From Pedosphaera sp. (GTDB taxonomy: Bacteria > Verrucomicrobiota > Verrucomicrobiia > Limisphaerales > UBA1100), in contig SIAW01000014.1 of the NCBI GenBank assembly GCA_009695465.1, positions 1-38,505 on the forward strand: a stretch of 38,505 nucleotides of DNA, read 5' to 3'. Below are positions 19,192 through 37,932 of this stretch, piece after piece. The position numbers and the translations under genes are program-made. Each line of letters begins with the position of its first letter. The stretch's first letter is position 1. The notes beneath the pieces were generated by a model, which was not told the origin of the DNA, did not search any database, and saw only the letters and a list, made by a program, of their open reading frames with translations.

Positions 19192-21452
19192 TGCGAAGCT
19201 GGCTGCTGACATGTTGGATGCGCTGGCGCGGTCGGTGCGCGAAGTGGGGCGCGCGCGCGGCCGTTGTGATTGCAGGCGCGTGGCTTTGCCTGCGCATCGC
19301 CATTTGGATCACGCCACTGCCACCGGCACTGATGGCGGAGCCGCAGACCAGCACGCAATATCTGGATCGCGACGGCAAGCCACTGCGGATGACGCTGGGT
19401 GCCGAGGATGCGTATCGTCGCTCGTTGTCCATCGTGGATTGCCCCGATGTTTTTGTGCAGGCCACGCTGGCTGCAGAGGACAAACGGTTTTGGGAACATG
19501 CAGGCGTGGACTGGCTGGCCACGGCGCGCGCCTTCAAGGACATGCTGCGCGCGGGCCGCGTGGTCTCCGGTGCGTCCACCATCACCCAGCAACTCATCAA
19601 GAACGCACAGCCGCGGCCGCGCAATGTTTCCGCGAAATTCAAGGAAGCGTTGCAGGCGATGAAACTGGAGACGCGCTGGAATAAGCGCCGCATCTTGGAG
19701 GCGTACTTGGCGCGGATTGATTATGGCAACGGCTGTCGCGGTGCGCACGTGGCTGCTGCATTCTATTTTGACAAGAGGCTGCACGATCTTTCACCGGCAG
19801 AGGCGGCACTGCTGGCGGCGTTGCCCAACGCGCCCGCGCGGTTGAATCCGCGCAAGCATCTGCAACGCGCGCAGCAACGGCAGCGCCTCATCCTTGCACG
19901 CATGCACGCCAACGGTGATTTGCGTGAAGATGCGCTGTGCCGCGCGCTGGCCGAGCCGGTGCGGCTCAATCGTGTGGGCCGTGCGTTTCGCGCGCCGCAT
20001 TTTGTGGACATCGTCGGGCAGCAACGTCCGCAGGCAACCGGCACGGTGAACACCACCGTGCGGCTGGAGCTCAACCAATTTGCACAGGAGACGTTGCGCG
20101 CGCAGCTTGCGCGATTGAAGGACAGGCAGGTCTCCAACGGTGCGGTGGTGGTGCTGGATGTGGCGAGTGGCGATGTGCTGGCACTGGTGGGGTCGCAGGA
20201 TTATTTCGAGGTAGACACCGGGCAAGTCAACGGCGCGTGGGCGCGACGTTCCGCGGGATCGACCTTTAAGCCGTTCACTTATCTCATGGCGCTGGAAAAT
20301 GGGGTGACGGCGGCAAGCATCCTGCCCGATGTGCCGTGCGAAATGCCGACGGCGACCGGCGTGTTCCGCCCGCACAATTACAACCATCGCTGCCACGGCC
20401 CGGTGTCGTTGCGCGCGGCCTTGGCCAACTCACTCAACATCCCTGCCGTGCACGCGCTTGAAGCGGCCGGTGGCGTGGCTGCGCTGCAAGATCGCCTGCG
20501 GCGTTGCGGGCTGAGCACGCTGGAAGAGTCCGCATCGCATTACGGTTTGGGCCTGACCCTTGGTAACGCAGAGACGCGCCTGCTAGAATTGGCCAATGCG
20601 TATGCGTGTCTGGCGCGCCTCGGTGTATGGCGTCCCTATCGCTTGCTCGCTAGTGATGCTGCGCCGGCGGTGCAACTTTTTGAATCGCGCGCAGCGTGGC
20701 TGGTCGCCGACATCTTGAGTGATGGCGATGCGCGCGCGCAGTCGTTTGGCGTGGACTCGGCACTCGCGTTTGATTTTCCCGTGGCCTGCAAGACGGGCAC
20801 GAGCACGGACTTCCGCGACAACTGGGCCTTCGCCTACACGCCGGAATTTGTGGTGGGCGTTTGGGTGGGCAATTTTGACGGCACGCCGATGCGCGATGTC
20901 TCCGGCGTGACGGGTGCTGCGCCCGTGATGCACGCCCTCATGGAGCGACTGCATCGCCTGCACGGCACCAGTTGGTACACGCAGCCTGCGGGCGTCGTGA
21001 CCGCGAACGTCAATCCGCTCACCGGCAAACGCGATGATGCGGGACGCGCCGAATGGTTTTTGGCAAATGCGCAACCGCCCGCCGCTGCGCCTGATGATCA
21101 CGACGCACAAGGACGTCTGCGGTTAGATTTGGCATACGCGCAATGGCTGGCCAGCAGCGACAACTGGCTGGGCGACCGAGCTGTGTTGCGGGAAGAACAG
21201 GACGATCGTCCCCGGCTGGTCACGCCGCTGCCGGGCATGGTGTTTTATATTGATCCGGATTTACCTGCAGACAGTCAGGAGATCCCGCTTCGGTTGAGCA
21301 GCAATCAGCCGGTGCGTTGGACATCGCCAACGTTGCGATGCACACAACGCGGCGTGCATGCGGTGGTTCGCCTTGCGCCCGGCACGCATCGTCTGCGGGC
21401 TGACATCGGTGGCCAGTCGGTGGAGACGTGGATCACGGTGGAGGCGTTGTAG
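19191..21452 (+). CDS. pbpC: Penicillin-binding protein 1C (bifunctional glycosyltransferase/transpeptidase)
   Basis: A class A PBP of 753 aa that polymerises and may cross-link peptidoglycan in the periplasm. It has an N-terminal membrane anchor (AAVVIAGAWLCLRIAIWI), then the GT51 domain with LAAEDKRFWEHAGVD and GASTITQQLIKN. The transpeptidase domain carries S357-T-F-K360 (GSTFKPF), the SLN of ANSLNIPAV, and K534-T-G (KTGTSTDFRDNW). Ending in a beta-rich BiPBP_C domain (about 660-753) identifies PBP1C. All catalytic residues are present. It begins in the stop codon of the A2M gene (TGATG), so the two are translationally coupled. This is thought to pair protease trapping with wall repair after damage. 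Confidence 0.95.
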   Translation: MRSWLLTCWMRWRGRCAKWGARAAVVIAGAWLCLRIAIWITPLPPALMAEPQTSTQYLDRDGKPLRMTLGAEDAYRRSLSIVDCPDVFVQATLAAEDKRFWEHAGVDWLATARAFKDMLRAGRVVSGASTITQQLIKNAQPRPRNVSAKFKEALQAMKLETRWNKRRILEAYLARIDYGNGCRGAHVAAAFYFDKRLHDLSPAEAALLAALPNAPARLNPRKHLQRAQQRQRLILARMHANGDLREDALCRALAEPVRLNRVGRAFRAPHFVDIVGQQRPQATGTVNTTVRLELNQFAQETLRAQLARLKDRQVSNGAVVVLDVASGDVLALVGSQDYFEVDTGQVNGAWARRSAGSTFKPFTYLMALENGVTAASILPDVPCEMPTATGVFRPHNYNHRCHGPVSLRAALANSLNIPAVHALEAAGGVAALQDRLRRCGLSTLEESASHYGLGLTLGNAETRLLELANAYACLARLGVWRPYRLLASDAAPAVQLFESRAAWLVADILSDGDARAQSFGVDSALAFDFPVACKTGTSTDFRDNWAFAYTPEFVVGVWVGNFDGTPMRDVSGVTGAAPVMHALMERLHRLHGTSWYTQPAGVVTANVNPLTGKRDDAGRAEWFLANAQPPAAAPDDHDAQGRLRLDLAYAQWLASSDNWLGDRAVLREEQDDRPRLVTPLPGMVFYIDPDLPADSQEIPLRLSSNQPVRWTSPTLRCTQRGVHAVVRLAPGTHRLRADIGGQSVETWITVEAL

Positions 21453-23938: not shown

Positions 23939-24730
23939 ATGATTATGAAAACACAACTCCAAGCATTGTTGGGCGCGGTCTTGTTGACGGCGCTGATGGC
24001 GGTGGCCGCTGATGAAAAGAAGCAGCCGAAGGTGGGTTACACCGACACCCCATTGATCCCCGGCCAGAAATGGCGCGTGCACGACGCAGACCGGCCGCAG
24101 CCGAAGGTGGCCAAGCCCGAAGCCTCGCCGACGCTGGGCGCGAAACCGCCGAAAGATGCGGTGGTGCTGTTCGATGGAACCGATCTGGCGCAGTGGGCCG
24201 GCGGCAAATGGAAGGTCGAGAATGGCTACATGGAAATCAACAAGACCGGCGGCGTGTCCACGAAGGAGCCGCTGGGTTCGATGCAACTGCATCTGGAGTT
24301 CGCCTCGCCCAAAGAGGTGAAGGGCGACAGCCAAGGCCGCGGCAACAGCGGTGTCATCATCATGGGCAAGTACGAGGTGCAGGTGTTGGACTCATACGAG
24401 AATGTGACGTACGCCGATGGCCAGTGCGCTTCGCTCTACGGGCAGTATCCGCCGGATGTGAACGTGTCGCTGCCGCCGGGCGAGTGGCAGACGTACGACA
24501 TCGAGTTCCACGCGCCGCAATTCAGCGGGGACAAGCTGGAGAAGCCCGCCCGCATCACGGTCAAGCACAACGGCGTGGTGGTGCACAACGACCGTGAGAT
24601 TCTGGGCGCGGTTTCCCATCGTGGATTGCCCAAGTACGCGCCGCACGCGGCCAAGCTGCCGTTGCAATTGCAGGATCACGGCAACCCGGTTCGCTATCGC
24701 AACATTTGGGCGGTGCCGCTGGCGAACTAA
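23939..24730 (+). CDS. Secreted DUF1080 (3-keto-disaccharide hydrolase-like) protein
   Basis: 263 aa with a signal peptide (MKTQLQALLGAVLLTALMAVAA). The rest is one DUF1080 domain (Pfam PF06439), a concanavalin-like beta-sandwich: VVLFDGTDLAQWAGGKWKV at the start, a central GNSGVIIMGKYEVQVLDSYE and a final DHGNPVRYRNIWAVPL. The family is abundant in Verrucomicrobia, Planctomycetes and Bacteroidetes; some members hydrolyse 3-keto-glycosides, and others are fused to cytochromes or found near dehydrogenases. Whether this one is catalytic is unknown. ATGs at 23939 and 23945 are both possible. The gene is divergent from the ABC ATPase gene and ends in a hairpin terminator. Confidence 0.9.
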   Translation: MIMKTQLQALLGAVLLTALMAVAADEKKQPKVGYTDTPLIPGQKWRVHDADRPQPKVAKPEASPTLGAKPPKDAVVLFDGTDLAQWAGGKWKVENGYMEINKTGGVSTKEPLGSMQLHLEFASPKEVKGDSQGRGNSGVIIMGKYEVQVLDSYENVTYADGQCASLYGQYPPDVNVSLPPGEWQTYDIEFHAPQFSGDKLEKPARITVKHNGVVVHNDREILGAVSHRGLPKYAPHAAKLPLQLQDHGNPVRYRNIWAVPLAN

Positions 24731-24746: not shown

Positions 24747-24773
24747 GGGCGGCGCGAGTGCGCCGCCCTTTTT
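24747..24773 (+). terminator. Intrinsic terminator between convergent DUF1080 and PPC-protein genes
   Basis: Perfect 9-bp stem GGGCGGCGC-GAGT-GCGCCGCCC followed by TTTTT, 16 bases after the DUF1080 stop. The T-run touches the stop codon of the minus-strand gene, so a termination role for that strand is possible but has a poorer T-tract (GTTTC). Confidence 0.88.
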
Positions 24774-27126
24774 ATTGGCGCCGGATTTTCAGCAGCACCG
24801 GCAGCGCGGTTTGCTTGCCGGCGGGATCTACCACGTTGCTGGTGCCGCCGAGCACTGCGAAGCAGATGCGATCCATCTCCTGCACCCACGGCGCGCAGTG
24901 CAGAAAGACTTCGCGGCGATCTTGATCCTCGGCGATCTCCACGCCGTTGAGGCCGATGCTGTCCACAATCACGCCATGCGGCAGGTTGGCCACGCTGATG
25001 TCTTGCAGACCCTTGTCGGTGACACGCTGCAACGCCAGCCAGATGGATGCCGTCTTGCCCGGCACGAGGGTGATCTCCAGCGGCTTGAACATTTGCAATT
25101 GCGGCGTGCCAGCACCAAAACGATTGGTGGCATTGGAGGCGACCACGGCCATGCGCGCCTTCAAACTCGCTTCACTTTCCAATCCCAAAAAAAGAGGGGA
25201 CTTGCCGCTGACATTTACTGTGCCCAGTCCGTTGATGGTGCGGCGAACTTCCGTTCCACCCACCATGGCCGTGGCGGTGAAGTTGCCAGCCAGCACGATG
25301 GGTTTGTCCAATAGCATATCGTTGGCGGCAAAGATGACGCCGTGCGCCTCCGTGTGGCCGGCCTCGATGAGCAGCGGCTGAGTGATGTGCAATCCGGAGG
25401 GCAGGGCGGGCAACTCCACGCGGATGGGACCGTCAAAACCATCCAACCGCTCGGCTTTGACGGTGAATCCTTTTCCAGTGCCGGGCGCGATGACAGGATT
25501 TTCGCCGGTGAGTGTCACCTTGAAATCCGGCTGCACCGCGCGGATTAACAGGCGATAGCTGTACAATGCACCGTGGCGATTGCGGTTGTCGGTGACGCGC
25601 ACGACGTAGTGGCCGTCGCGTGGCGCGGTGAAGAACAGGCGCGAGTCGGTGCCCCATTGGCGCAGGCCATCGTCGTCGTTCGTGTAATTGAGGGCAAAGA
25701 CCGGCAGGCCGTTGTCGGGCAACGCAGCGCCGGGCGCGAAGGGCTGCACGATGTAGCAGGGCGAACTGTCGGCGTGCGCAGCGGCGGAGGTGTCAAAGAA
25801 ACAGCGCCGTGCGCCGGTCGTGCTGCTGTAGAAACGAAAGCCGCTGTCCGGGCCTTCGGGGGCGCGGAAGAGTTTCACGACCTCGCCCTCCATGTAGAGA
25901 TATTCGTTGAGCGACATCTCCTCCCAATGATCCACGCGAGCATCGAGCTGGGTGGAATTGATCGGGCGAAAGTTGAGGGCGGAGTTGCGGACGGCCTGCA
26001 GCTTGGCCCGCGGCACCGGCTGGCCGTTCTCGAAGAGCACATCCAGCCGCGTGTCCACCGGCGAACCGCGCCGCGCAGCAATCGTCTCCATCACCAAAGT
26101 CGTCCCTGCCTTGGCGGCGAACCGGAAATGATCCGCATCATTGGCGCGAGTGCTGCCCCAGATGCGCGCGCTCACCGCAGCGGGAATCGCCAGCGTCTGC
26201 GACTGCGCGGGCTGATCGTTGGGTTCCTGCTCCAGTGCGTCCGGTTCGGCGGTCACGATGGCTTTGAGTTCGCTGCGGACACGCAAGCGCGCCGGATCCA
26301 GCGGCACACTGAATTCACCGGGAGCCGTCGCTTTCACTTCAACCTCCTGCGTCTGCAGATTGTGACCGGCCAGTTGAATCTTCGTCTGGCGATTGAGCGC
26401 GATGGCGGGCGGATAAAACCCGGTGACAAACGGCAGCGCACCGGCGGTGAGGCGATAATAGTGCTCGCTCGATCCGCTGCGTTGCAGATCAGTGATCTGG
26501 ATAAAATGCCGGCCCGCCGCGGTGAAAAGATGCGCCAGAAACGGTTCGCCTTGTTCGCGGCTGCTGGCCAGCACGCGGCCTTGTGAGTCGAGCAATGCGA
26601 GGAGCAGTTCGCTGGCTTTGGAGCCAATCGATTTGGCCTGCAGATGAAAGACGATTGTCTGTCCCGCCTGCGCATCGAAGGCGATGCGGTCCGTATCACC
26701 CGGCGTATCCAGCGCGCCCCAGTACGCAGCGGGCAACACGATTGCCGCAGGCGGATGCGTGCGCAGTTTGGGTTCGATCACCTGCGCGATGTCATCAATG
26801 TGCAGTTTCACCTGCGCACTTTCACCGGCGCTATTCTTGAGCCAAACCTCGTGCGTGCTGCGCCCCAATTCTGCAGGCACGGTGATGAGCGCGCGCCACG
26901 GCGCGGTCGCGTTGGCTGGAGGCGCGATCAACTTGCCGGTGATGCGCTTGTCTGAAAATTCAACGGTCAAACCACCGGCGTTGGTGCCCGCCAGTGCGAA
27001 TTCCGAAGTCGTGCCACGCTGGATGCCGCGGGGTTCAATGGACTGCAAGACCGGACGCTGTTCCGCAGCGGACAACACGCTCAAGCAGCAACAGAGGATT
27101 AAAAAGGCACCGCGCATCGTGCTCAT
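24772..27126 (-). CDS. Large exported protein with PPC-type and IPT-like beta domains
   Basis: 784 aa, last gene of the minus-strand operon. A signal peptide (MRGAFLILCCCLSVLSAAE) is followed by IPT/TIG-like beta domains (QSIEPRGIQRGTTSEFALAGTNAGG; a second near GFYPPAIALNRQTKIQLAGHNL). Segments typical of bacterial pre-peptidase C-terminal (PPC) domains follow: TPGDTDRIAFDAQAGQTIVF, TRANDADHFRFAAKAGTTLV and FFTAPRDGHYVVRVTDN. No protease or other catalytic motif is visible. Such proteins are common next to DUF1501/DUF1549 genes in PVC bacteria and presumably bind a partner or glycan outside the cytoplasm; function is unknown. I chose the ATG at 27126, which overlaps the upstream stop by four bases (ATGA); the track start adds a non-secretory, Arg-rich leader. 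Confidence 0.8.
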   Translation of the reverse strand: MSTMRGAFLILCCCLSVLSAAEQRPVLQSIEPRGIQRGTTSEFALAGTNAGGLTVEFSDKRITGKLIAPPANATAPWRALITVPAELGRSTHEVWLKNSAGESAQVKLHIDDIAQVIEPKLRTHPPAAIVLPAAYWGALDTPGDTDRIAFDAQAGQTIVFHLQAKSIGSKASELLLALLDSQGRVLASSREQGEPFLAHLFTAAGRHFIQITDLQRSGSSEHYYRLTAGALPFVTGFYPPAIALNRQTKIQLAGHNLQTQEVEVKATAPGEFSVPLDPARLRVRSELKAIVTAEPDALEQEPNDQPAQSQTLAIPAAVSARIWGSTRANDADHFRFAAKAGTTLVMETIAARRGSPVDTRLDVLFENGQPVPRAKLQAVRNSALNFRPINSTQLDARVDHWEEMSLNEYLYMEGEVVKLFRAPEGPDSGFRFYSSTTGARRCFFDTSAAAHADSSPCYIVQPFAPGAALPDNGLPVFALNYTNDDDGLRQWGTDSRLFFTAPRDGHYVVRVTDNRNRHGALYSYRLLIRAVQPDFKVTLTGENPVIAPGTGKGFTVKAERLDGFDGPIRVELPALPSGLHITQPLLIEAGHTEAHGVIFAANDMLLDKPIVLAGNFTATAMVGGTEVRRTINGLGTVNVSGKSPLFLGLESEASLKARMAVVASNATNRFGAGTPQLQMFKPLEITLVPGKTASIWLALQRVTDKGLQDISVANLPHGVIVDSIGLNGVEIAEDQDRREVFLHCAPWVQEMDRICFAVLGGTSNVVDPAGKQTALPVLLKIRRQ

Positions 27127-28424
27127 GGTTTCCAAGGGTAACTTTGCAGCGAGCCGTCCTGCCTGCCCACATAAAGCTGCGCGTCGGCAAAGACGATGGC
27201 GGTCGGCCAGTCGGGTTGGCGCCCGAACGATTTGGCGAGCCGCAGATCCGACGCCTGCCACAGCTTGAGCGTCTTGTCCTCCGCTGCGCTGGCCAGATGC
27301 GTGCCATCGGGTGAGAAGGCCAGTTTCAGAATCGCGCCTTCATGCGCGAACTGCGAATGCAGAAGGGCGTTGGTGCCTTCCACCGCCGTGGCGCTGACGG
27401 TCCACATGCGGATGCGATTGTCGCCACCCGCCGCGACGAGGCGCGCGCCATCGGGCGTGAACGCAACGGCGTGCTGCGCTTTGAGCGGTTGCGAGAAAGT
27501 GTCCAGCCGCGCGCCCGTGGCCACCGACCACAGTTTGATGGTGGCATCCGCACTGGCGCTGGCCAGCACCTTGCCATCGGCGCGGAACGACAAGCCAAAA
27601 ATAGCGCCGCTGTGCCCGGACAATTCGCGCACCGGCGCGCCGTCCTTCGTGTTCCAGAGAATGATTTTCTGATCGTAGCTGCCGGTGGCCAGCAAACTCC
27701 CGTCGGTGGTGATGGCCATTGCATAGATGGCATCGCGATGTCCGCGAAGGATGCGCACTGGGCGCGCTTCTTTCACATTCCAGAATCGCAGCTCGCCGGG
27801 AAATCCATTGTCACCGCCGGCGGCGTACAGGCCATCGCGTGCGAAGAGGAGGGCGTTCACGTTGCCGCGATGGCCGGTGAAGGGCGCAGGCACGCGTGGC
27901 TGGCGTTCGCCTGCACTGGCCGCATTGGCCCACGCCAGCGCGCCGTGTTGGCCCAGCGCCAGCAATTTGCTGTCGGGGTCATGGGCCAGTGCGTGGATGG
28001 CGCGCGGTGGTGCGACGCGCGGCTTGATGTCCGGGAAACGGATTTCAGCCGTCGTCGCGACGGCGGGCCGCTTGGCACCGGCGTCAATCCACGCTTTCAC
28101 CAACGTGATTTGCGCGAGGGGCAGGTGGTCGCGTTTGCCCGGCGGCATGAACTGGTTCTTGCCGGTCTTGCCCGAGCGGCCTTCCAGGAACTTGATCAAC
28201 AGGCTGTCGCCGCTTTTGCCCGCAGCCAGCACCGCGCCGCTTTGGCCGCCTTTCATCAAGGTGTCAAAATTCTCCAACACCAGCTTGCCTTCGGGATCCT
28301 CCGAGCTGTGACAGTCCATGCAGTGCGCCTGGAAAATCTTTTGCACGTCGGCGTAATCCGGCGCGGCGGCTTGCAGGGCGGTGTGCGAGCCGAGAGAGAA
28401 AACGATGGCAAGCACCGCGCGCAT
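27123..28424 (-). CDS. Exported planctomycete-type cytochrome c-WD40 repeat protein
   Basis: 433 aa. A signal peptide (MRAVLAIVFSLGSHTALQAAA) precedes a small cytochrome c domain of the PVC type, with heme motif C35-MD-C38-H39 and a likely axial Met in NQFMPPGKRDHLPL (M93). The rest is a WD40 beta-propeller of about seven blades (GHRDAIYAMAITTDGSLLATGSYDQKIILW and similar). The arrangement places electron transfer and a protein-interaction propeller in one periplasmic molecule. Its function is not established. The stop overlaps the next gene's start by four bases, and the DUF1549 gene ends two bases before its start, so the operon is tightly coupled. Confidence 0.9.
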   Translation of the reverse strand: MRAVLAIVFSLGSHTALQAAAPDYADVQKIFQAHCMDCHSSEDPEGKLVLENFDTLMKGGQSGAVLAAGKSGDSLLIKFLEGRSGKTGKNQFMPPGKRDHLPLAQITLVKAWIDAGAKRPAVATTAEIRFPDIKPRVAPPRAIHALAHDPDSKLLALGQHGALAWANAASAGERQPRVPAPFTGHRGNVNALLFARDGLYAAGGDNGFPGELRFWNVKEARPVRILRGHRDAIYAMAITTDGSLLATGSYDQKIILWNTKDGAPVRELSGHSGAIFGLSFRADGKVLASASADATIKLWSVATGARLDTFSQPLKAQHAVAFTPDGARLVAAGGDNRIRMWTVSATAVEGTNALLHSQFAHEGAILKLAFSPDGTHLASAAEDKTLKLWQASDLRLAKSFGRQPDWPTAIVFADAQLYVGRQDGSLQSYPWKP

Positions 28425-28426
28425 GT

Positions 28427-30583
28427 TCAGTGGTTGAACAGGAATTCTTTGCTGGTGAGCAGCGCGAAGAGCAGGTCTTCTGCGGCTTCGCGGGGATCGC
28501 GGGCGTCGAGGCTTTGCGCGGCTGCGGTCAGTTCCGCAGCGGTGGGGGGGCGGGAAAGTGCCGACAGATAAAGTTCCTCCACCAATCGGGCGGTGGGCAA
28601 TTTTTTCGCGAGCAGACGGCTCAGGTTGGAATCCTTCGCGGCGAGTTTGTCGTTGAGCGTTTTGCCGTTGGCCATGTGCAGCATCTGCCCGACGCTGGGA
28701 TCATCCACGCGCTCGCAGGTGCAAGTGGTTTCGCGCTTAGGCCGGCCGAAGGAGCTGAGGAAATAGGATTCCACATTGGCATCGGGCAACTGCACCGCGC
28801 GCCAGGTTTTGGGATAGTCTTTGAACTCGGTGGGCACACCGGTGACCTGCGAGAGGGTGTCGAGCATGACCTCCGCCATCAGACGGCGCGGATAGTAGCG
28901 CGAGTAAAACCGGCGGTCGGCCACATTTTGCGGCGTGGCGATGCTGCTGCGTTGGTAGGTCTCCGATTGCAAAATGGCCCGCATCAACTCGCGCAGGTCG
29001 TAGTGATTCTTGGTGAGATGTGCAGCAACAGCGGCCAGCAGCTTTTCGTTGCTGGCAGGATTGGTGCGGCGCATGTCATCCACCGATTCCACGAGGCCCT
29101 CCGCAAAAAAGTTGGCCCACACGCGATTGGCAACGGCGCGGGCGAACCACGGATTATCCGGATGCGTTAACCAATCGGCGAAGGGCTGACGGCGATCAAG
29201 TGCAGCGGCGGGATCCAGCGCGGGCGCATCCAACGGGCGCGGCGGCTGCGGACGTCCGGTGAGCGGCTGCGGGATTTCACCCTGCGTTTCCAGAAACACA
29301 ATCTCGTGGCCTTCACCGCCGGCGTCCTTGCGGCGCACGCGCGCGAAAAGGCTGGCCATGCCGTAGTAATCGTTGTTCGTCCACTGTTCCATCGGATGGT
29401 TGTGGCATTGCGCGCAGTTGATGGACATGGCGAGGAATGAGGCCACGGTGTTCTCCGCCACTTTCTTGGGATCATCGTGCAGCACAAAAAAGTTGGCGCT
29501 GCCGTTGTCGAGCGTGCTGCCTTGCGCGGTGATCATCTGGCGCGCCAACACATCCCAGCGCGTGTTGGAGGCGACGTGATTGCGCAGCCATCCGTAGAAG
29601 GACCACATGGCAGGCTTCTTCAGGCGCGCGGTGGAGACCAGAAAAAGATCGGACCATTTGTACGTCCAGTAATCCACGAACTCCGGCCGGGCAAAGAGCG
29701 ACTCGATAAGCTGGTCGCGTTTGTCGGGCGCAGCGCTGGCGGTGAAGGCGCGCGTTTCATCGGCGGTGGGCAGCACGCCCACGGTGTCCAAGAATGCGCG
29801 GCGGATGAACTCCGCGTCCGTGCAACGCGCTGAAGGCGGCAGGTTCAGCTCGCGCAGTTTGCCCAGCACGAGGTCATCAATAAAATTGCGGCGCGGGGCG
29901 CGGGTGTAAATCTCCGGGGCGACGGTGTTGGGGTAGGGGACGGTGATGGTGGCGATGGCCAGCCGGCTCATGTACCACGCCGCGAGTGCGCCACCGCCGT
30001 GATTGACCACAGTGATCTGCCCCGTGTCACCCGCCTGTGCCACGGTTTCATCGGCCGAGGTGTACTTGGTCCAGCGCGTCACATCTTCGCTGCGACCGTC
30101 GCTGAAATGGGCGGTGACTTTGAACTGGTGCGCGTCGCCGTTCTTTAAGGTGACGGCGGGCGGCTGGATTTCAATGCGCTGGATGCGCGCGTCCTTTTCA
30201 CTGGGGCCGGGCGCGCCATTGGCGATCCAGTCGGCAAGGATGCGGAACTCACGCGAGTCCACCTCGAATCGCTTGCCGCCTTTGTGAGGCAGCAGCGCGG
30301 TGGGTTTGAGCAACATCAAGCTGCGCCCCGGTTCAGCGAGATTCACGCGGCGTGCTGCGGCTTGGCGTGTCAGCGCGAGATAATCGGTCTCGTCATCGAA
30401 GCCGCGCAGTGAAAGTTTGAAACCATTCTTGCCCGCAGCTGCGCCGTGGCAAGCGCCGGAGTTGCAACCGTACTTGGTGAGGATGGGCTGCACGTCATTG
30501 CGAAAACTCGGCGCAGCAGCGGGCGCGGCGAGAAGTCCACCGATGCCGAGCATCATCGCCAGTAAACTGAAGGAGCGTTTCAT
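28427..30583 (-). CDS. DUF1549/DUF1553 domain protein with heme-like motifs
   Basis: 718 aa. A signal peptide (MKRSFSLLAMMLGIGGLLAAPAAA) precedes an N-terminal cytochrome-like region with C40-NSGA-C45-H46 (a CX4CH spacing), then an Ig/Big_2-like segment (about 135-215). DUF1549 spans about 235-440 and contains C390-AQ-C393-H394 in SINCAQCHNHPMEQW. DUF1553 follows to the end (WFARAVANRVWANFF ... ETYQRSS ... RRLMAEVMLD). This architecture is typical of Planctomycetes and Verrucomicrobia and almost always occurs with a DUF1501 gene. Function is unknown; a role in extracellular redox or glycan chemistry is speculation. The track start at 30586 is a GTG directly before this ATG; either could be used. 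Confidence 0.9.
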   Translation of the reverse strand: MKRSFSLLAMMLGIGGLLAAPAAAPSFRNDVQPILTKYGCNSGACHGAAAGKNGFKLSLRGFDDETDYLALTRQAAARRVNLAEPGRSLMLLKPTALLPHKGGKRFEVDSREFRILADWIANGAPGPSEKDARIQRIEIQPPAVTLKNGDAHQFKVTAHFSDGRSEDVTRWTKYTSADETVAQAGDTGQITVVNHGGGALAAWYMSRLAIATITVPYPNTVAPEIYTRAPRRNFIDDLVLGKLRELNLPPSARCTDAEFIRRAFLDTVGVLPTADETRAFTASAAPDKRDQLIESLFARPEFVDYWTYKWSDLFLVSTARLKKPAMWSFYGWLRNHVASNTRWDVLARQMITAQGSTLDNGSANFFVLHDDPKKVAENTVASFLAMSINCAQCHNHPMEQWTNNDYYGMASLFARVRRKDAGGEGHEIVFLETQGEIPQPLTGRPQPPRPLDAPALDPAAALDRRQPFADWLTHPDNPWFARAVANRVWANFFAEGLVESVDDMRRTNPASNEKLLAAVAAHLTKNHYDLRELMRAILQSETYQRSSIATPQNVADRRFYSRYYPRRLMAEVMLDTLSQVTGVPTEFKDYPKTWRAVQLPDANVESYFLSSFGRPKRETTCTCERVDDPSVGQMLHMANGKTLNDKLAAKDSNLSRLLAKKLPTARLVEELYLSALSRPPTAAELTAAAQSLDARDPREAAEDLLFALLTSKEFLFNH

Positions 30584-30602
30584 CACGGCAAGAGCGGACG
30601 GT

Positions 30603-31982
30603 TCAGGCGAAGAGTTCCTTCACCGGCTGCGTGCCGAAATCAACGATGGGGAACGGGCGGCCGGCCGGTCCGGGTAGCTCGGTTTCCAGATCCAACCCGA
30701 GGCTGTGATAGATCGTCGCGGCAATCTCGGAAGGCTTCACGGGACGCTCGGCGGGGTAGCCGCCAATCTCGTCGCTCTTGCCGATGACGCGTCCGCCTTG
30801 AACACCGCCGCCGGCAAAATAGACCGTCCAGCAATGCGGCCAATGATCGCGCCCGCCAGCGGGATTGACCTTCGGCGTGCGCCCAAACTCGGCGAGGTTG
30901 CAGACCATCGTGCGCTCCAGCAATCCGCGCTGGTGCAAGTCCTCGATCAACGCGCTGTAGCCTTGATCGTACATCGGCGCGACGATGTCTTTCATGCCGG
31001 TGATGGAGGTGAACGGTTTGGAGCCGTGGATGTCCCACGTGATCTCGTTGAAGACGGTGATAAACGTGTTGATGGTGACAAACCGCACGCCCGCCTCCAC
31101 GAGGCGCCGCGCCAAGAGACAGCACTGGCCAAAGCGCGACATGCCGTAGCGTTCGCGCACGGCCAGCGGTTCTTTGGTGAGATCAAACGCATCGCGCGCG
31201 CGTTGGCTGGTCATCAGGCGATAGGCGACGGAAAAACTTTCGTCCATCAACTTGGCGCTCTCGGTCGTCTCGAAATACTTCGTCGAGTCGTCCACGATCT
31301 GGCGTAGATTTTTGCGGCGCTCCAATCGCGCCTCGCCGATTTCTTTTGGCGGCAGCAAATCGGGAACGCGGAAGTCCGCCTTGGAGGGATCGGCGTTGAG
31401 GACGAACGGATCGCGGCTCTTGCCCAGAAACCCTGCGTCCTGTCCGTGCGGCATGTTGCCACCGGTCGGCCCCATCGGTTCGGGCAGGATGATGTGCGCG
31501 GGCAATTCGTTGCGGCGACCGCGCAGGAATTCCGCGGCGCTGCCCACGTGCGGGGTGTTGATGCCGCCAGAGAAGAGGCGGCCGGTCTGCATCATCTGAT
31601 GGCCGGTATCGTGCACGGCGGCGGCGGTGTGATAACAACTGCGCACGAGCGAAAACTTGTCCGCCACCGCGGCGTGCTTCGGGAAAATCTCGCTGATCTC
31701 GAAGGCGTCGCTCTTGGTGCGGATGGGCTTGAACGGTCCGCGAATCTCGCGGGGCGCATCGGGTTTCATGTCCCACGTGTCCATCTGGCTGGGAGCGCCC
31801 AGATTAAAGATCATGATCGCATTGCGATCGTCCTTGGTGGGATCCACCCGCTTTGCAGCTTTGGCAGCGGCGAAGGCGGGCAGCGATAAGCCCAGTGCGC
31901 CGAGCGCGCCGACTTCCAGAAAATCGCGACGTCGAATGCCGTCGCAGGTGAGAATGGAGCCGGAGCCGGAGATTTTCAGCAT
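30603..31982 (-). CDS. DUF1501 protein with Tat signal
   Basis: 459 aa. The N-terminus has a twin-arginine signal, RRRDFL at 17-22 followed by a hydrophobic stretch to AFAAA, so it is probably exported folded, perhaps with a metal cofactor. The body is a DUF1501 domain, related to the alkaline phosphatase/sulfatase superfamily: IMIFNLGAPSQMDTWDMKP at the start, HDTGHQMMQTGRLFSGG, MVCNLAEFGRTPKVNPAGGRDHWPHCW and GGVQGGRVIGKSDEIGGYP. Activity in the family has not been shown to my knowledge. The ATG at 31982 (MLKISGSGS) is preferred over the track start 48 bases upstream. It is first in the four-gene minus-strand operon, 19 bases ahead of the DUF1549 gene. Confidence 0.92.
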   Translation of the reverse strand: MLKISGSGSILTCDGIRRRDFLEVGALGALGLSLPAFAAAKAAKRVDPTKDDRNAIMIFNLGAPSQMDTWDMKPDAPREIRGPFKPIRTKSDAFEISEIFPKHAAVADKFSLVRSCYHTAAAVHDTGHQMMQTGRLFSGGINTPHVGSAAEFLRGRRNELPAHIILPEPMGPTGGNMPHGQDAGFLGKSRDPFVLNADPSKADFRVPDLLPPKEIGEARLERRKNLRQIVDDSTKYFETTESAKLMDESFSVAYRLMTSQRARDAFDLTKEPLAVRERYGMSRFGQCCLLARRLVEAGVRFVTINTFITVFNEITWDIHGSKPFTSITGMKDIVAPMYDQGYSALIEDLHQRGLLERTMVCNLAEFGRTPKVNPAGGRDHWPHCWTVYFAGGGVQGGRVIGKSDEIGGYPAERPVKPSEIAATIYHSLGLDLETELPGPAGRPFPIVDFGTQPVKELFA

Positions 31983-32091
31983 AAGCAGCCTTGCGTGCGA
32001 AGAGGCTAACAGGGGGGGCGGGGAATACAATCATCGTGTCGCGGTTTGACTTGCGAGGCCTGCGAGATGTAGCTTGAGGCGAGGAAGGATA

Positions 32092-33816
32092 ATGGCAGCC
32101 AAAGACGATTACCTGGTCGAGACCCTGTGCGACATGGGCGTGGTGCATGAAGACCAGGTGGACACCGCGCGCACCACGGCGGACATGGCCGGCGTGGGCG
32201 TGGTGGACACGTTGATCAAGCAGAAGGCCATCAACAGCGAACACCTCATTCGCGCTCGCGCCATGCACTTTGGCATGGAGGTGGTGGACCTGCAGGATGT
32301 GGTGCCCACCGACGAACTGGTGCAGGCCATGCCGCGCCACATCGCGCGGCGTTACAATGTCCTCCCGCTGCAGATTGACGGCAACTCGCTGACGGTCGCC
32401 ACCAGCGACCCCAGTGACCTGGAGATGATGGATGGCGTGCAGCGCATGTTGCCCGAGCACGAGATTTTCTATCAGGTCGCCAGTGATCAGCAGATCTTAG
32501 CGGCGCTGGATAAATTTTACGGCGGCACCGGCCAGGCGGTGGAGCGGGTCGTGCAGGAACTCTCGCAGACGCAGGTGGACATTGATGCGGCTGCAGGTGG
32601 GAAAACAAAAAAGCAAACCGAGGCGGAGATTGATGCCGGTGATGATTCACCGCTGATCCGGCTCGTCGCCAAGATCATCGCCGAGGGTTACAAGCTGGGC
32701 TGCTCGGACGTTCACATCGAGCCTTTCGAGCGCACCTTGCGCATCCGCTATCGCATTGACGGTTCGCTGCGCGCGGTGGCCAGCCCGCCGTTGCGGCTGC
32801 ATCCGCCCATCATCAGCCGCATCAAGATCATGTCTTCGATGTCCATCTCCGAGAAGCGCGTGCCGCAAGACGGGCGCATGCAGCAGCTCATCGGAGACAA
32901 GGTGATCGACTTCCGTGTCAGTTGTCTGCCCACGCAATATGGCGAGAGCATCGTCATGCGTATTCTGGACAAAGGCGGATTGAGTTTGGGATTGGATCAG
33001 CTGGGTTTCATGCGCGACGACCAGGAGACGTTCGAGCGTTGCGCGCAGATGCCTGACGGCATCCTGCTGGTCACCGGCCCCACAGGCTCGGGCAAAACCA
33101 CCACGCTCTATTCCTGTCTGAACCTGCTGAACACACCGCAGAAAAAAATCATCACCGTCGAGGATCCTGTCGAGTACATGCTCGACGGCATCAACCAAGT
33201 GCAGGTGAACGAGCTGGCCGGCATGACCTTCTCCGCCGCGCTGCGCTCGATGCTGCGTCAGGCGCCCAACATCATCATGCTTGGGGAAATTCGTGATGCA
33301 GAGACGGGCACCATCGCCGTCAACGCGTCGCTCACCGGCCACTTCGTCTTCTCCACACTGCACACCAACGACGCGCCCGGTGCCATCACGCGTATGATTG
33401 ATCTGGGCATCAAGCCCTTCCTCGTTTCCTCGGCCACACGCTGCGTGATGGGCCAGCGGTTGGTGCGCAAAATCTGCAGCAAGTGCGGGGGCAAGGGCGA
33501 ACTGACCGAGGAAGAATTGACGGCCTTGGAGATCACGCCGGAGATGGCGGCCAGCGCCAATTTCCGCAAGGGTGCCGGGTGCAAAGTTTGCGGGGGTTCC
33601 GGTCTCAAAGGGCGAATGGGAATTTTCGAGGTGTACCCGCTCAACGATACCGATCGCCGCATGATCATTGATGGCGCGCCCACGGCGGACTTGCGCGCGC
33701 ACGCCATCAAGTGCGGCATGAAATCCTTGCGGATGGACGGCGTGCGAAAGGTGCTTGCGGGCACCACGATCGCCCAGGAAGTCATCTCCAACACTACATC
33801 GGACCAAAAGGAATAG
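32092..33816 (+). CDS. pilB: PilB/GspE-type secretion ATPase (first copy)
   Basis: The 574-aa motor ATPase drives pilin polymerisation for type IV pili or type II secretion from the cytoplasmic face. It contains an MshEN/GspE N-terminal domain (about 1-150), then the ATPase: Walker A GPTGSGKTTTLYS with K335, the Asp box TVEDPVEYM, Walker B GEIRDAETGTIA and the His box LTGHFVFSTLHTNDA. A zinc-type tetracysteine follows (CSKCGGKG ... CKVCGGSG). The usual RQDPD before Walker B reads RQAPN here (A391, N393). The start is the ATG at 32092 with AGGAAG just upstream. It leads an operon with pilT (7-base gap), a second ATPase and pilC. Confidence 0.93.
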   Translation: MAAKDDYLVETLCDMGVVHEDQVDTARTTADMAGVGVVDTLIKQKAINSEHLIRARAMHFGMEVVDLQDVVPTDELVQAMPRHIARRYNVLPLQIDGNSLTVATSDPSDLEMMDGVQRMLPEHEIFYQVASDQQILAALDKFYGGTGQAVERVVQELSQTQVDIDAAAGGKTKKQTEAEIDAGDDSPLIRLVAKIIAEGYKLGCSDVHIEPFERTLRIRYRIDGSLRAVASPPLRLHPPIISRIKIMSSMSISEKRVPQDGRMQQLIGDKVIDFRVSCLPTQYGESIVMRILDKGGLSLGLDQLGFMRDDQETFERCAQMPDGILLVTGPTGSGKTTTLYSCLNLLNTPQKKIITVEDPVEYMLDGINQVQVNELAGMTFSAALRSMLRQAPNIIMLGEIRDAETGTIAVNASLTGHFVFSTLHTNDAPGAITRMIDLGIKPFLVSSATRCVMGQRLVRKICSKCGGKGELTEEELTALEITPEMAASANFRKGAGCKVCGGSGLKGRMGIFEVYPLNDTDRRMIIDGAPTADLRAHAIKCGMKSLRMDGVRKVLAGTTIAQEVISNTTSDQKE

Positions 33817-33823
33817 GAACGTC

Positions 33824-34966
33824 ATGCCAGAAAGAGAGGCCGTTTACAAAATGCCCGACCTGCTCACCCTGATGGTGGACACGGGCAGCGCTGACTTGCA
33901 TGTGCGCGTGGGCATTCCGCCGGCGTACCGGCACAAGGGACTGCTCAAGCGCGTGTCGGGACCGCCCTGCGAGCCGGAGGATGTGGAGTCGTTGGTGAAG
34001 AGTATCGCGTCGGACGATCACATCCAGCAGTTGCGCACCAAGGGCGGTGCGGACTTCGGGTTTGCCTTCGGCACCAAGGCGCGCTTCCGCGTCAGCGCGT
34101 TCAAAGAGCGTGGCAACATGGCGCTCGTGCTGCGGCAGATTCCCAATGACCTGTTGACGATCTCGCAGATCGGGCTGGATCCGCAACTGGTGCACAAGCT
34201 CCTGTCCATGTCGCGTGGGATGATTCTGGTGACTGGCCCCACCGGCTCGGGCAAGTCCACCACGCTGGCTTCGCTGGTCAACATCATCAACGAGGAGAGC
34301 GACGAGGCGCACATCATCACCATCGAAGATCCCATCGAGTTTTATCACCCGCACAAGAAGGCCATCACCACGCAGCGCGAAGTGCACGTGGACGTGCCCA
34401 GCTTCGGCGAGGCGCTGCGCCGCGCGTTGCGGCAGGATCCCGAAGTGATCCTCGTGGGTGAGTTGCGCGACTTGGAAACGATTGAGATGGCGGTGTCGGC
34501 AGCCGAGACGGGCCACTTGGTGTTTGGCACCTTGCACACGACGGGCGCAGCCAAGACGGTGGATCGTATTGTCAACGCGTTTCCCATGCAGCAGCAGGAG
34601 ACCATCCGCATCCAGCTCTCCACGGTGTTGCAGGCGGTGATCTCGCAGATCCTGCTCAGGCGCGCCGACGGCAAAGGGCGCGTGGCCATCCACGACATCA
34701 TGATCAACACGCCGTCCATCGCAGCGCTCATCCGCGACAACAAGACCTTCCGCATTCCCTCGGACATGCAGACGGGCGCCAAGTACGGGATGATCACGAT
34801 GGATGACAACATGTATCAGAAGTTCACCAAGGGCATCGTGTCGCGCGAGGATTGCATCAACAAAGCGCAGGACTACCTAGGCATGCTGCAAAAGCTCAAG
34901 GAGTACGACGAGGTGCAGTCGCTGGAAGGCGAGGAGGATGCTGCGCCGCCGGCCAAGCAGCATTGA
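33824..34966 (+). CDS. pilT: Type IV pilus retraction ATPase PilT
   Basis: PilT, 380 aa, depolymerises pili to power twitching motility and DNA uptake. Seen: PAS-like N-terminal domain (LLTLMVDTGSADLHVRVGIPP), Walker A GPTGSGKSTTLASL with K144, ITIEDPIEFYHPHKKA, Walker B VGELRDLETIEMAVSAAETGHLVFGTLHT, and an AIRNLIRE-like C-terminal segment (PSIAALIRDNKTFRI). There is no tetracysteine, as expected for PilT. The start is the ATG at 33824; the 23 residues the track adds are out of the pilB reading frame and Arg-rich. It lies between two PilB-type ATPases, three bases ahead of the second. Confidence 0.95.
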   Translation: MPEREAVYKMPDLLTLMVDTGSADLHVRVGIPPAYRHKGLLKRVSGPPCEPEDVESLVKSIASDDHIQQLRTKGGADFGFAFGTKARFRVSAFKERGNMALVLRQIPNDLLTISQIGLDPQLVHKLLSMSRGMILVTGPTGSGKSTTLASLVNIINEESDEAHIITIEDPIEFYHPHKKAITTQREVHVDVPSFGEALRRALRQDPEVILVGELRDLETIEMAVSAAETGHLVFGTLHTTGAAKTVDRIVNAFPMQQQETIRIQLSTVLQAVISQILLRRADGKGRVAIHDIMINTPSIAALIRDNKTFRIPSDMQTGAKYGMITMDDNMYQKFTKGIVSREDCINKAQDYLGMLQKLKEYDEVQSLEGEEDAAPPAKQH

Positions 34967-34969
34967 TCC

Positions 34970-36655
34970 ATGTCTGAATTACTGACAGACCCGTTGCTGC
35001 TGCTGATCCACGAGCGTGGGTTGGCCGACGTGACTGATTTGGAGAAGGTGCAGGGCGACCACAACCTCAACGGCGTGCCCGTCTCCAAGCTGTTGCAGGA
35101 TCAGGGCATCTTGGGCGTGGGCGATCAGTTGCAGTTGCTCGCCGATTATCTTGGCACCGACGTCATTGATTTGACAGAGGTGGAGTTCAGTCCGGAACTG
35201 CTGGCCACGATTCCGCTGGAGACTGCGCACCACTACCAATGCCTGCCGGTCGGTGTGGATGGAGACATGCTCCATCTGGTGTTGGCCGATCCGATGAACC
35301 CGACGCACATCGACGAGCTGACCTATCTACTGCACAAGGAGATCATCATCCGCATCGCTGATCCGGTGCAGATTCTCAAGCAACTCCTGATTCACTACTC
35401 CAAGGAACTTTCCATGGAGGATTTGGTGAAGGAGTTGGGTGGCGCCGGGGAGACGGTCAAGGAAGTCGATGCCGCCGGCACCGCGATTGAGGAGGTAGGC
35501 GATGCCACGCCCATCATACGCTTTGTCAACTTGGTGATGTATCAAGCGCTCAAAGAGAAGGCGGCGGACATCCACTTTGAGCCGTTCGAGTCGGACTATC
35601 AGATCCGGATGAAGGTGGACGGCTCGATGAAATTACTCACGCCGCCCCCGCGTGAATTGGCGTCGGCCATCGCCTCGCGCATCAAGATCATGGCCAACCT
35701 GAACATCGCCGAGCGCCGCGCGCCACAGGACGGACGCATCTCGACGGTCATCGCCGGCAAGCAGTTGGACTTGCGCGTGTCCACGTTGCCCACGCAGTTT
35801 GGCGAGTCGGTGGTGTTGCGTATCTTGGACCGCACCTCGTCGCTGCTCTCACTGGATGTTCTGAATATCCCGCCCAAAGTGCGCGCCTCCATCGAGCACA
35901 GTATTGAGCAGCCCAACGGCATCTTCCTCGTGACTGGGCCCACTGGCTCCGGCAAGACCACCACGCTTTATGCCTGCCTGAAAATGCTCAACACCGAGGA
36001 CACCAAAATCCTCACCGCAGAAGATCCGGTGGAGTATCCCATCGACGGCATCGTGCAGGTGCAGATCAGTGAATCGATGGGGATGACGTTCGCCAAGGCG
36101 CTCAAATCTTTTCTGCGTCAAGATCCGGACATCATCCTCGTGGGTGAGATGCGCGATCTGGAGACGGCCAAGATCGGCATCGAAGCCTCGCTGACCGGCC
36201 ACTTGGTCGTGAGCACGCTGCACACCAACAGCGCGGCCGAGGCCATCACGCGACTGGGCGACATGGGCGTGGAAGCCTTCCTCATCGCCTCCTCGGTCAA
36301 CGGTGTGTTGGCGCAACGCTTGGTCAAAACCATCTGTCAGAAATGCAAGACCGGCATGGACATGACGCCCGATCAGATTCGCATGCTGGATCTGCGGCCC
36401 GAGGAAGTGGTGGGACAGATTTCATTCGGCACTGGATGCGATCGTTGCAACCAGACCGGCTACAAAGGACGCCGCGGCATCTACGAGATGTTGGTGATGA
36501 GTGACGAGGTTCGCGAACTCATCAGCCAACGCGCGCCCGGAATCGTGCTGCGCGACAAGGCCATGGAGCACGGAATGCAGACCTTGCGCATGGATGGCCT
36601 GAACCTTATGTTCAATGGCGTGACGACCTTCGAGGAAGTCATGAAATATACCTGA
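34970..36655 (+). CDS. PilB/GspE-type secretion ATPase (second copy)
   Basis: 561 aa, a paralogue of the first pilB product with the same layout: N-terminal MshEN/GspE domain, Walker A GPTGSGKTTTLYA with K329, Asp box TAEDPVEYPIDG, the canonical RQDPDIILVGEMRDLETAKIG, His box LTGHLVVSTLHTNSA and a tetracysteine (CQKCKTG ... CDRCNQTG). Unlike copy one, its pre-Walker-B motif is the usual RQDPD. Whether it serves the same pilus, a type II secretion system or a competence machine cannot be told. It starts three bases after pilT and is followed within five bases by pilC. Confidence 0.92.
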   Translation: MSELLTDPLLLLIHERGLADVTDLEKVQGDHNLNGVPVSKLLQDQGILGVGDQLQLLADYLGTDVIDLTEVEFSPELLATIPLETAHHYQCLPVGVDGDMLHLVLADPMNPTHIDELTYLLHKEIIIRIADPVQILKQLLIHYSKELSMEDLVKELGGAGETVKEVDAAGTAIEEVGDATPIIRFVNLVMYQALKEKAADIHFEPFESDYQIRMKVDGSMKLLTPPPRELASAIASRIKIMANLNIAERRAPQDGRISTVIAGKQLDLRVSTLPTQFGESVVLRILDRTSSLLSLDVLNIPPKVRASIEHSIEQPNGIFLVTGPTGSGKTTTLYACLKMLNTEDTKILTAEDPVEYPIDGIVQVQISESMGMTFAKALKSFLRQDPDIILVGEMRDLETAKIGIEASLTGHLVVSTLHTNSAAEAITRLGDMGVEAFLIASSVNGVLAQRLVKTICQKCKTGMDMTPDQIRMLDLRPEEVVGQISFGTGCDRCNQTGYKGRRGIYEMLVMSDEVRELISQRAPGIVLRDKAMEHGMQTLRMDGLNLMFNGVTTFEEVMKYT

Positions 36656-36660
36656 CCGCT

Positions 36661-37932
36661 ATGCCGCTGTTTAACTACGTCGCCCTCGACAAGACGGGCA
36701 AGGAGAAGCAGGGCACCTTGGAGGTGGACAGCCAAAAGGAGGCCATCAACCGCATCAAGGAGATGGGGTTTCACCCCACGAGCGTCACCGAGGCCAAACC
36801 CGAAGGCGCCGCCAAAGGTGGCAAGAAAGGTGCGCCCGGAAAGAAGGGTGCCAAAAAGGAACCGTTTTCCTTCGCGATGGGTTCGGTGGGCACGAAGGAT
36901 CTCTGCACCTTCACGCGCCAATTGGCCACGCTGGTGGACGCAGGCTTGCCCCTGTTGCGCGGCATGCAGGTGCTTTCCAAACAGCAGAAGAATCCCGTCC
37001 TTAAAAAGGTCATCAAGGACATCTCCACCACAGTCGAAGGCGGCGCGACGTTTTCCGAGGCACTGGCTAAGCAGCCCAAGACGTTTGACAAGTTGTACGT
37101 GAACATGGTCAAGGCCGGCGAGCTGGGCGGCGTGCTCGAAGTCACGCTCAACCGTCTGGCCGAGTTCATGGAGAAGGCCGAGAAGATCAAGGGCAAGGTC
37201 AAGGCGGCGATGTTTTATCCGGTGGCGGTGATGGTGGTGGCGTGCGTCATCGTGTACGTGCTGATGGTGTACGTCATTCCCAAGTTCAAGATGATCTTCA
37301 GCGACATGTTGGGCAAGGGCGAGTCGCTGCCGGAATTCACGCAGATGGTCATGGCCATCAGCGATACCATTGCCAACAACGCTGGGGCCGTGGTGGGCGG
37401 TGTCGTCGCCTTTTACGTCGCCTTCAAAATGATCGTCGCGAAAACCAAGTGGGGCCGTTGGGGTTGGGACAAGTTCCTGTTGATCCTGCCCGTGCTGGGG
37501 CCGGTGATTTCCAAAGTAGCCATCTCGCGCTTCACACGCACACTGGGCACGTTGATCTCCTCTGGTGTACCCATCTTGCAGGCGCTTAACATCACCAAAG
37601 AGACCTGCGGCAACGTGATCATCAGCCGCGCCATTGATGGCGTTTACAACGCCGTGAAAGAAGGCGAGACCATCGTCAAGCCGCTGGAAGCCTGCGGGGT
37701 CTTTCCGCCCATGGTCATCAGCATGGTGGACGTGGGTGAGCAGACCGGTGCGCTGCCAGAAATGCTCATCCGCATCGCCGGCACGTACGACGAAGAAGTG
37801 GACAACGCCGTCAGCGCGCTTACCTCGCTCATCGAACCGATCATGATCGTCTTCCTGGCCGTCGTCGTGGGCAGCATCGTCATCGCCATGTTCATGCCGC
37901 TCATCAAGCTGATGGACAAGTTGGGATCGTAG
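36661..37932 (+). CDS. pilC: Type IV pilus/type II secretion inner-membrane platform protein PilC/GspF
   Basis: 423 aa. Begins PLFNYVALDKTGKEKQGTLEVDS, the PilC/GspF N-terminus, then two cytoplasmic T2SSF domains (TRQLATLVDAGLPLLRGMQVL; SRFTRTLGTLISSGVPILQAL) and three membrane helices (near residues 180-205, 235-260 and 390-415). GELGGVLE and VGEQTGALPEMLI are the paired conserved motifs. A Gly/Lys-rich linker (KGGKKGAPGKKGAKKE, about 52-67) separates the N-terminal strand from the first domain. PilC anchors the motor ATPases to the pilus base. It ends the four-gene operon; I see no pilin, secretin or prepilin peptidase gene. Confidence 0.94.
   Translation: MPLFNYVALDKTGKEKQGTLEVDSQKEAINRIKEMGFHPTSVTEAKPEGAAKGGKKGAPGKKGAKKEPFSFAMGSVGTKDLCTFTRQLATLVDAGLPLLRGMQVLSKQQKNPVLKKVIKDISTTVEGGATFSEALAKQPKTFDKLYVNMVKAGELGGVLEVTLNRLAEFMEKAEKIKGKVKAAMFYPVAVMVVACVIVYVLMVYVIPKFKMIFSDMLGKGESLPEFTQMVMAISDTIANNAGAVVGGVVAFYVAFKMIVAKTKWGRWGWDKFLLILPVLGPVISKVAISRFTRTLGTLISSGVPILQALNITKETCGNVIISRAIDGVYNAVKEGETIVKPLEACGVFPPMVISMVDVGEQTGALPEMLIRIAGTYDEEVDNAVSALTSLIEPIMIVFLAVVVGSIVIAMFMPLIKLMDKLGS

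Follow-up and report, generated by a model that had tools for sequence, protein, structure and literature searches.

The window analysed in this study, a stretch of 38,505 nucleotides of Pedosphaera sp. (contig SIAW01000014.1), carries a cassette of four co-directional minus-strand genes, and these four genes are one unit. With moderate confidence, we propose that they encode one exported heme-carrying envelope complex, representing a conserved subtype of the "DUF1501 module" of the Planctomycetes–Verrucomicrobia–Chlamydiae (PVC) bacteria. The conserved gene order, the fusion of genes 3 and 4, and the co-occurrence of the families across two phyla are far beyond chance. The cassette extends from 31982 to 24772; its genes are separated by 19 and 2 bases and, at the gene 3/gene 4 junction, overlap by 4 bases (ATGA), in agreement with the preliminary description of this DNA, which had been made from the letters alone. 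The four genes are as follows:

30603..31982, minus strand: gene 1, DUF1501 protein exported by the twin-arginine translocation (Tat) type, with an altered-site alkaline-phosphatase/sulfatase fold (Pfam PF07394, AlphaFold2 (AF2), Foldseek)
28427..30583, minus strand: gene 2, exported protein with a CX4CH cytochrome-like domain, Big_2, PSCyt2 (DUF1549, CxxCH), and PSD1 (DUF1553) (Pfam; AF2 predicted local distance difference test score (pLDDT) 87.8)
27123..28424, minus strand: gene 3, exported PSCyt1 cytochrome c (CMDCH, Met93) fused to a WD40 propeller (Pfam, motif alignment)
24772..27126, minus strand: gene 4, exported multi-beta-domain protein of ~784 aa with weak PPC matches (Pfam, profile comparison)

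The export of all four proteins, already noted in the preliminary description, was borne out by their N-termini as judged by eye, with an RRxFL Tat-type motif in the DUF1501 protein and Sec-type signal sequences in the products of genes 2, 3, and 4. No strong terminator-like site was found at the gene junctions inside the cassette, where the only match was a weak one of 6 pairs (28418-28402) within the gene 3 start.

Conservation, fusion, and co-occurrence of the cassette

A gene 4 profile search of one-per-species genomes returned 215 relatives, the best 80 of which were read for the locus analysis. Genes 3 and 4 were adjacent or fused in every intact locus (75/75), and the fused form was found in 59 of these, namely 46 in Verrucomicrobiota and 13 in Planctomycetota. 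In 44 loci, 5 kb or more of upstream sequence was available; of these, gene 2 was present in 33, and genes 1 and 2 occurred in the order and strand of the window in 30. The survey of gene order in the PVC superphylum, which the preliminary description had proposed, thus showed that the cassette order recurs in both Verrucomicrobiota and Planctomycetota. The Planctomycetota gene 4 sequences formed one cluster, within which one unlabelled record also fell. Phylum-wide sampling gave 6 positive genomes out of 289, a lower bound since the top three candidates per genome were scored.

The co-occurrence survey covered 58 order-level genomes, with a stricter version using one genome per family. Orthologues of gene 4, the DUF1501 subtype, and the gene 2 subtype were detected in 31, 28, and 28 genomes, respectively, with all three in 25 genomes and none in 26. 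The families occurred together with p values of 8e-10 to 2e-13 across the 58 genomes and of 6e-9 to 3e-11 with one genome per family, where gene 4 against gene 2 gave 20/0/0/18 (p = 3e-11). The gene 2 subtype was separated by score, as full-length members reached at least 1050 bits, two partial ones 912 and 818, and the next paralogues at most 767; the cassette was a single-copy unit in the surveyed carriers. In five genomes (G022, G043, G025, G021, and G044), the gene 1–2 pair and the fused gene 3–4 were located on separate contigs and both were retained. The distance matrices of the four proteins correlated with r of 0.92-0.97 (34 loci), values that shared phylogeny alone also raises. The correlated distribution of the four families, whose absence the preliminary description had named as grounds against one complex, was therefore found.

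Because genes 3 and 4 are fused in two phyla and the families occur together, the four proteins are probably one physical unit, and the single complex suggested in the preliminary description is supported at the sequence level by the same fusion. That four unrelated exported proteins are adjacent by accident is extremely improbable. Some adjacency is indeed expected in a genome where these families are abundant (DUF1501 at 62 places and PSCyt2 at 38), but such ordinary clustering is already contradicted by the conservation of the order, by the fusion, by the co-occurrence, and by the retention of both parts where they are split.

The DUF1501 protein and its heme-motif partner

The gene 1 product matched Pfam DUF1501 (PF07394) with an E value of 7e-104 (348 bits, cut-off 27). 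Its orthologues were 72-91% identical, and 240 of the 459 residues showed at least 97% conservation among 35 sequences. The AF2 model (pLDDT 81.7) matched sulfatases and LtaS-type enzymes in Foldseek with E of ~1e-6 and low template modelling (TM) scores of 0.3-0.42, and the alignment with the sulfatases of the host genome itself was weak but collinear (hhalign E 7e-4); the PDB sequence search gave no match for the DUF1501 protein. Unlike in sulfatases, neither the C/S-x-P/A-S/T-R nucleophile motif nor the metal-binding Asp/Asn was found in the gene 1 alignment: the strand-1 DD reads LG, removing the Asp pair, and DNG reads EFG, removing the Asp-Asn pair. The Cys that yields formylglycine (FGly) in sulfatases is replaced by His124, which lies nine residues ahead of the T in the TG(R/K) motif, the spacing of the sulfatase nucleophile Cys. 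His124, Asp317, His319, Arg368, and His380 did not vary among 48 sequences from cassettes and paralogues and were almost invariant in DUF1800-linked DUF1501s. They may include one D-H-H metal site close to His124. Sulfatase or phosphatase activity was rejected for DUF1501, since the fold matches and the catalytic residues are missing, and the earlier label "phosphatase/sulfatase-like" holds for the fold and not for the catalytic residues. DUF1501 would be a repurposed member of the alkaline-phosphatase superfamily, either an enzyme of other chemistry or a binding subunit.

Gene 2 matched PSD1 (E 1e-43, 149.6 bits) and PSCyt2 (E 4e-40, 138.6 bits), both above cut-off, which agrees with its earlier description as a heme-motif DUF1549/1553 protein and brings the motif count to two, CX4CH and CxxCH. 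Such PSCyt/PSD genes were reportedly described by Studholme in 2004 as "Planctomycete-specific cytochrome c" genes. The CX4CH, His100, CxxCHxHP, and CxC of gene 2 were invariant in 44/44 sequences, own-genome paralogues included. By hand alignment, His100 stands at the position of the Met ligand in the PSCyt1 domain of gene 3, which suggests that the first heme (CX4CH/His100) is bis-His. The PDB sequence search and Foldseek of gene 2 returned the Big_2 domain as the sole match, and no solved relative of the PSCyt2/PSD1 core was detected by them. This Big_2 domain (29936-30181) matches a solved "Teneurin-like protein" (9ifo) with E 8e-27, a far closer match than those to other Big_2 domains.

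The PSCyt2/PSD1 protein appears to be a remote, heme-motif-bearing relative of DUF1800, which is the usual companion of DUF1501 in many bacteria elsewhere. Gene 2 itself gave a sub-threshold match to Pfam DUF1800 (E 6e-5, 22.9 bits, cut-off 26.1), and a PSCyt2/PSD1 profile of 93 family members aligned with DUF1800 over 477 columns (hhalign E 7e-7), whereas the controls with unrelated families (DUF1501, gene 4) and with reversed or shuffled DUF1800 gave E of 0.035 or worse. The relation became clear only with this wider family, since hhalign restricted to cassette-type sequences gave a weak alignment (prob 21). Gene 3 also scored against DUF1800 (1e-6), most simply via the shared cytochrome domain. 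In all 30 DUF1800 loci examined (30/30), a DUF1501 gene adjoined the DUF1800 gene. With this constant neighbour and the homology to DUF1800, the simplest reading of genes 1 and 2 is a DUF1501-DUF1800 pair in a form that bears heme. The host genome has DUF1501 pairs of both kinds, as a true DUF1800 gene lies beside a divergent DUF1501 gene (G000:C6:15209-17654).

The PSCyt1 cytochrome domain sits on gene 3 and not on gene 2. It was recognised in the isolated gene 3 N-terminus (E 1.7e-9, 38.6 bits, cut-off 22) and is followed by WD40 (E 1e-43), as the earlier reading of a cytochrome c fused to WD40 had it; its CxxCH and Met93 (MPP) were kept in 74/75 sequences. Full-length orthologues of gene 4 were 39-64% identical, and its family profile matched a collagenase domain (E 3e-4).

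Proposed electron path and alternative readings

From the observed genes, linkage, fusion, motif conservation, fold class, and remote homology, we infer complex formation, heme attachment, electron flow, and some reaction. The core would consist of the DUF1501 and PSCyt2/PSD1 proteins. A reaction at this core would release electrons to (or take them from) a pair of candidate c-type hemes in gene 2 (CX4CH, which is probably bis-His, and CxxCH), and these would be linked through the PSCyt1 heme in gene 3 with the respiratory chain. A docking or anchoring arm may be provided by the WD40 propeller together with gene 4. The electron-moving role proposed in the preliminary description is plausible from the three heme motifs per cassette, together with the cytochrome c assembly proteins encoded in the host genome. 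More speculatively, the DUF1501 and DUF1800-like pair might be a very widespread exported two-protein enzyme with a chemistry new to the alkaline-phosphatase fold, using the His at the nucleophile position. PVC bacteria would then have connected it, on a propeller scaffold, to a series of hemes (CX4CH bis-His, CxxCH, PSCyt1), giving a new type of periplasmic oxidoreductase.

Several observations weigh against an exported heme-carrying complex. The DUF1501/PSCyt2 pair was absent nearby in 11 loci. No CxxCH was found in the DUF1800 relatives examined, so heme may be dispensable for the core function, and the CxxCHxHP and CxC motifs in gene 2 might instead hold a structural metal or form a disulfide. 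The PPC match of gene 4 is sub-threshold, 1.2 bits under the cut-off, and this label, which the preliminary description also used, is weak.

In a structural alternative, the proteins would form an envelope scaffold or assembly factor whose hemes or Cys/His sites are structural, without substrate turnover. The dismantled DUF1501 active site relative to sulfatases, the nature of WD40, Big_2, and PPC as binding domains, and the DUF1800 relatives lacking CxxCH are consistent with it, as is the reported association of the DUF1501 module with intracellular membranes (Kamneva 2012, cited in PMC4452313). However, the invariant heme motifs with axial-ligand positions and the invariant His/Asp/Arg of DUF1501 look functional, and 62 DUF1501 places in a 2.6-Mb genome fit substrate diversity better. 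We consider the structural alternative improbable.

Concerning a link to glycans, two further features lie downstream of gene 4:

24747..24768, no strand assigned: terminator-like GC-rich hairpin (9 pairs) and T tract between the convergent gene 4 and DUF1080 gene
23939..24730 (longest open reading frame from 23867), plus strand: 3-keto-disaccharide hydrolase (PF06439/DUF1080), convergent, judged outside the cassette (start from gene call)

A saccharide-oxidising system, in which the core oxidises a periplasmic sugar or polyol, the hemes accept the electrons, and the product feeds a 3-keto-glycoside pathway (Gfo/Idh/MocA and DUF1080 enzymes), is a less likely but still serious alternative to the reading that we prefer. 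The DUF1080 gene is convergent with gene 4 in the window and in two family-level relatives, and a Tat-type Gfo/Idh/MocA-like gene, assigned by sequence reading, recurs beside gene 4 or close to it in 13 loci, most of them from Verrucomicrobiaceae (downstream of gene 4 in L132, L134, L139-L142, L147, L148, L152, L156, L162, L163, and L170). However, the latter association is largely that of one clade, and Gfo/Idh/MocA genes are abundant in such genomes. In the literature, carbohydrate-binding module (CBM) domains occur on some PSCyt proteins and sulfatases nearby (PMC5615132), and DUF1501-DUF1800 pairs have been found with bacterial chitin synthases (PMC5122149). Against these points, no carbohydrate-active enzyme (CAZyme) or transporter family recurs beside the cassette loci, as would mark a polysaccharide utilisation locus. 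The DUF1080 gene was rejected as a cassette member, being convergent, behind a strong terminator, and confined to the family of the window among the order-level relatives and the 80 loci; the joint action on glycans with DUF1080 suggested earlier is not upheld for the same reasons.

An anti-phage system was also rejected, as PADLOC returned a WD40-repeat match only, and the NCBIfam search gave no match.

Published relatives and genomic surroundings

The broader gene family is already described, and the cassette is a variant of it. Kamneva 2012, through the citations in PMC4452313 and PMC4960237, reported DUF1501 clusters to be a genetic module conserved in PVC bacteria. As known via these citing papers, the module consists of exported DUF1501 proteins in a cluster conserved in Planctomycetes and Verrucomicrobia; the cassette likewise holds a DUF1501 above cut-off in a conserved cluster. 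DUF1501 adjoining WD40 genes was reported in Planctomycetes (PMC5587647). PSCyt/PSD genes, with a family of unknown genes as the usual neighbour of PSCyt2, were described by He 2017 (PMC5615132), who stated their function as not known. The cassette shares with these the PSCyt1, PSCyt2, and PSD1 domains and the partner domains Big_2 and WD40, and differs from them by carrying PSCyt1 on a WD40 protein of its own, by a CX4CH domain at the N-terminus of gene 2, and by gene 4 as a constant fourth member. With the DUF1501-DUF1800 pairs (PMC5122149), it shares the Tat-type DUF1501 and the same invariant His/Asp set, and the partner there is remotely homologous to the PSCyt2/PSD1 protein of the cassette, whereas the cassette partner bears CxxCH and scores below the DUF1800 cut-off. 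The preliminary description was thus correct that no function is assigned, the 2012 and 2017 publications giving none, but the system is not undescribed as far as these sources, the former through its citing papers, are concerned. Four features were not found in the literature searched, where the module list of Kamneva 2012 lay outside the comparison, although they may have been published: the relation to DUF1800, the changed sulfatase site of DUF1501, the CX4CH motif with its His100, and the fusion of gene 3 with gene 4.

PVC genomes are filled with these families, which have been without a function for two decades. As a definable single-copy unit with a natural fusion, the cassette lends itself to experimental study, also in strains that are in culture, Brevifollis gellanilyticus among them, and through the link between PSCyt2/PSD1 and DUF1800, a functional result would extend to the DUF1501-DUF1800 pairs of other phyla.

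The host genome (2.57 Mb, 130 contigs, 90.6% complete) has its relatives in Verrucomicrobiota. Its other cassettes vary, some having DUF1501, gene-4-like, PSCyt2, and cytochrome-WD40 genes in a different order and one having PSCyt2 fused with cytochrome-WD40; the cassette of the window therefore represents a single conserved subtype in a family that has expanded. Several DUF1501 genes stand in tandem on contig C18.

Adjoining the cassette, a divergent cluster of type IV pilus/type II secretion ATPase genes occupies 32074-37932, the first identified by Pfam (T2SSE/MshEN) and the others by sequence reading, and such genes also lie beside the cassette in loci L081 and L101. Elsewhere in the window (13591-21452), an alpha-2-macroglobulin-like protein of 1866 aa is directly followed by a PBP1C-type transglycosylase/transpeptidase, a familiar bacterial pairing.

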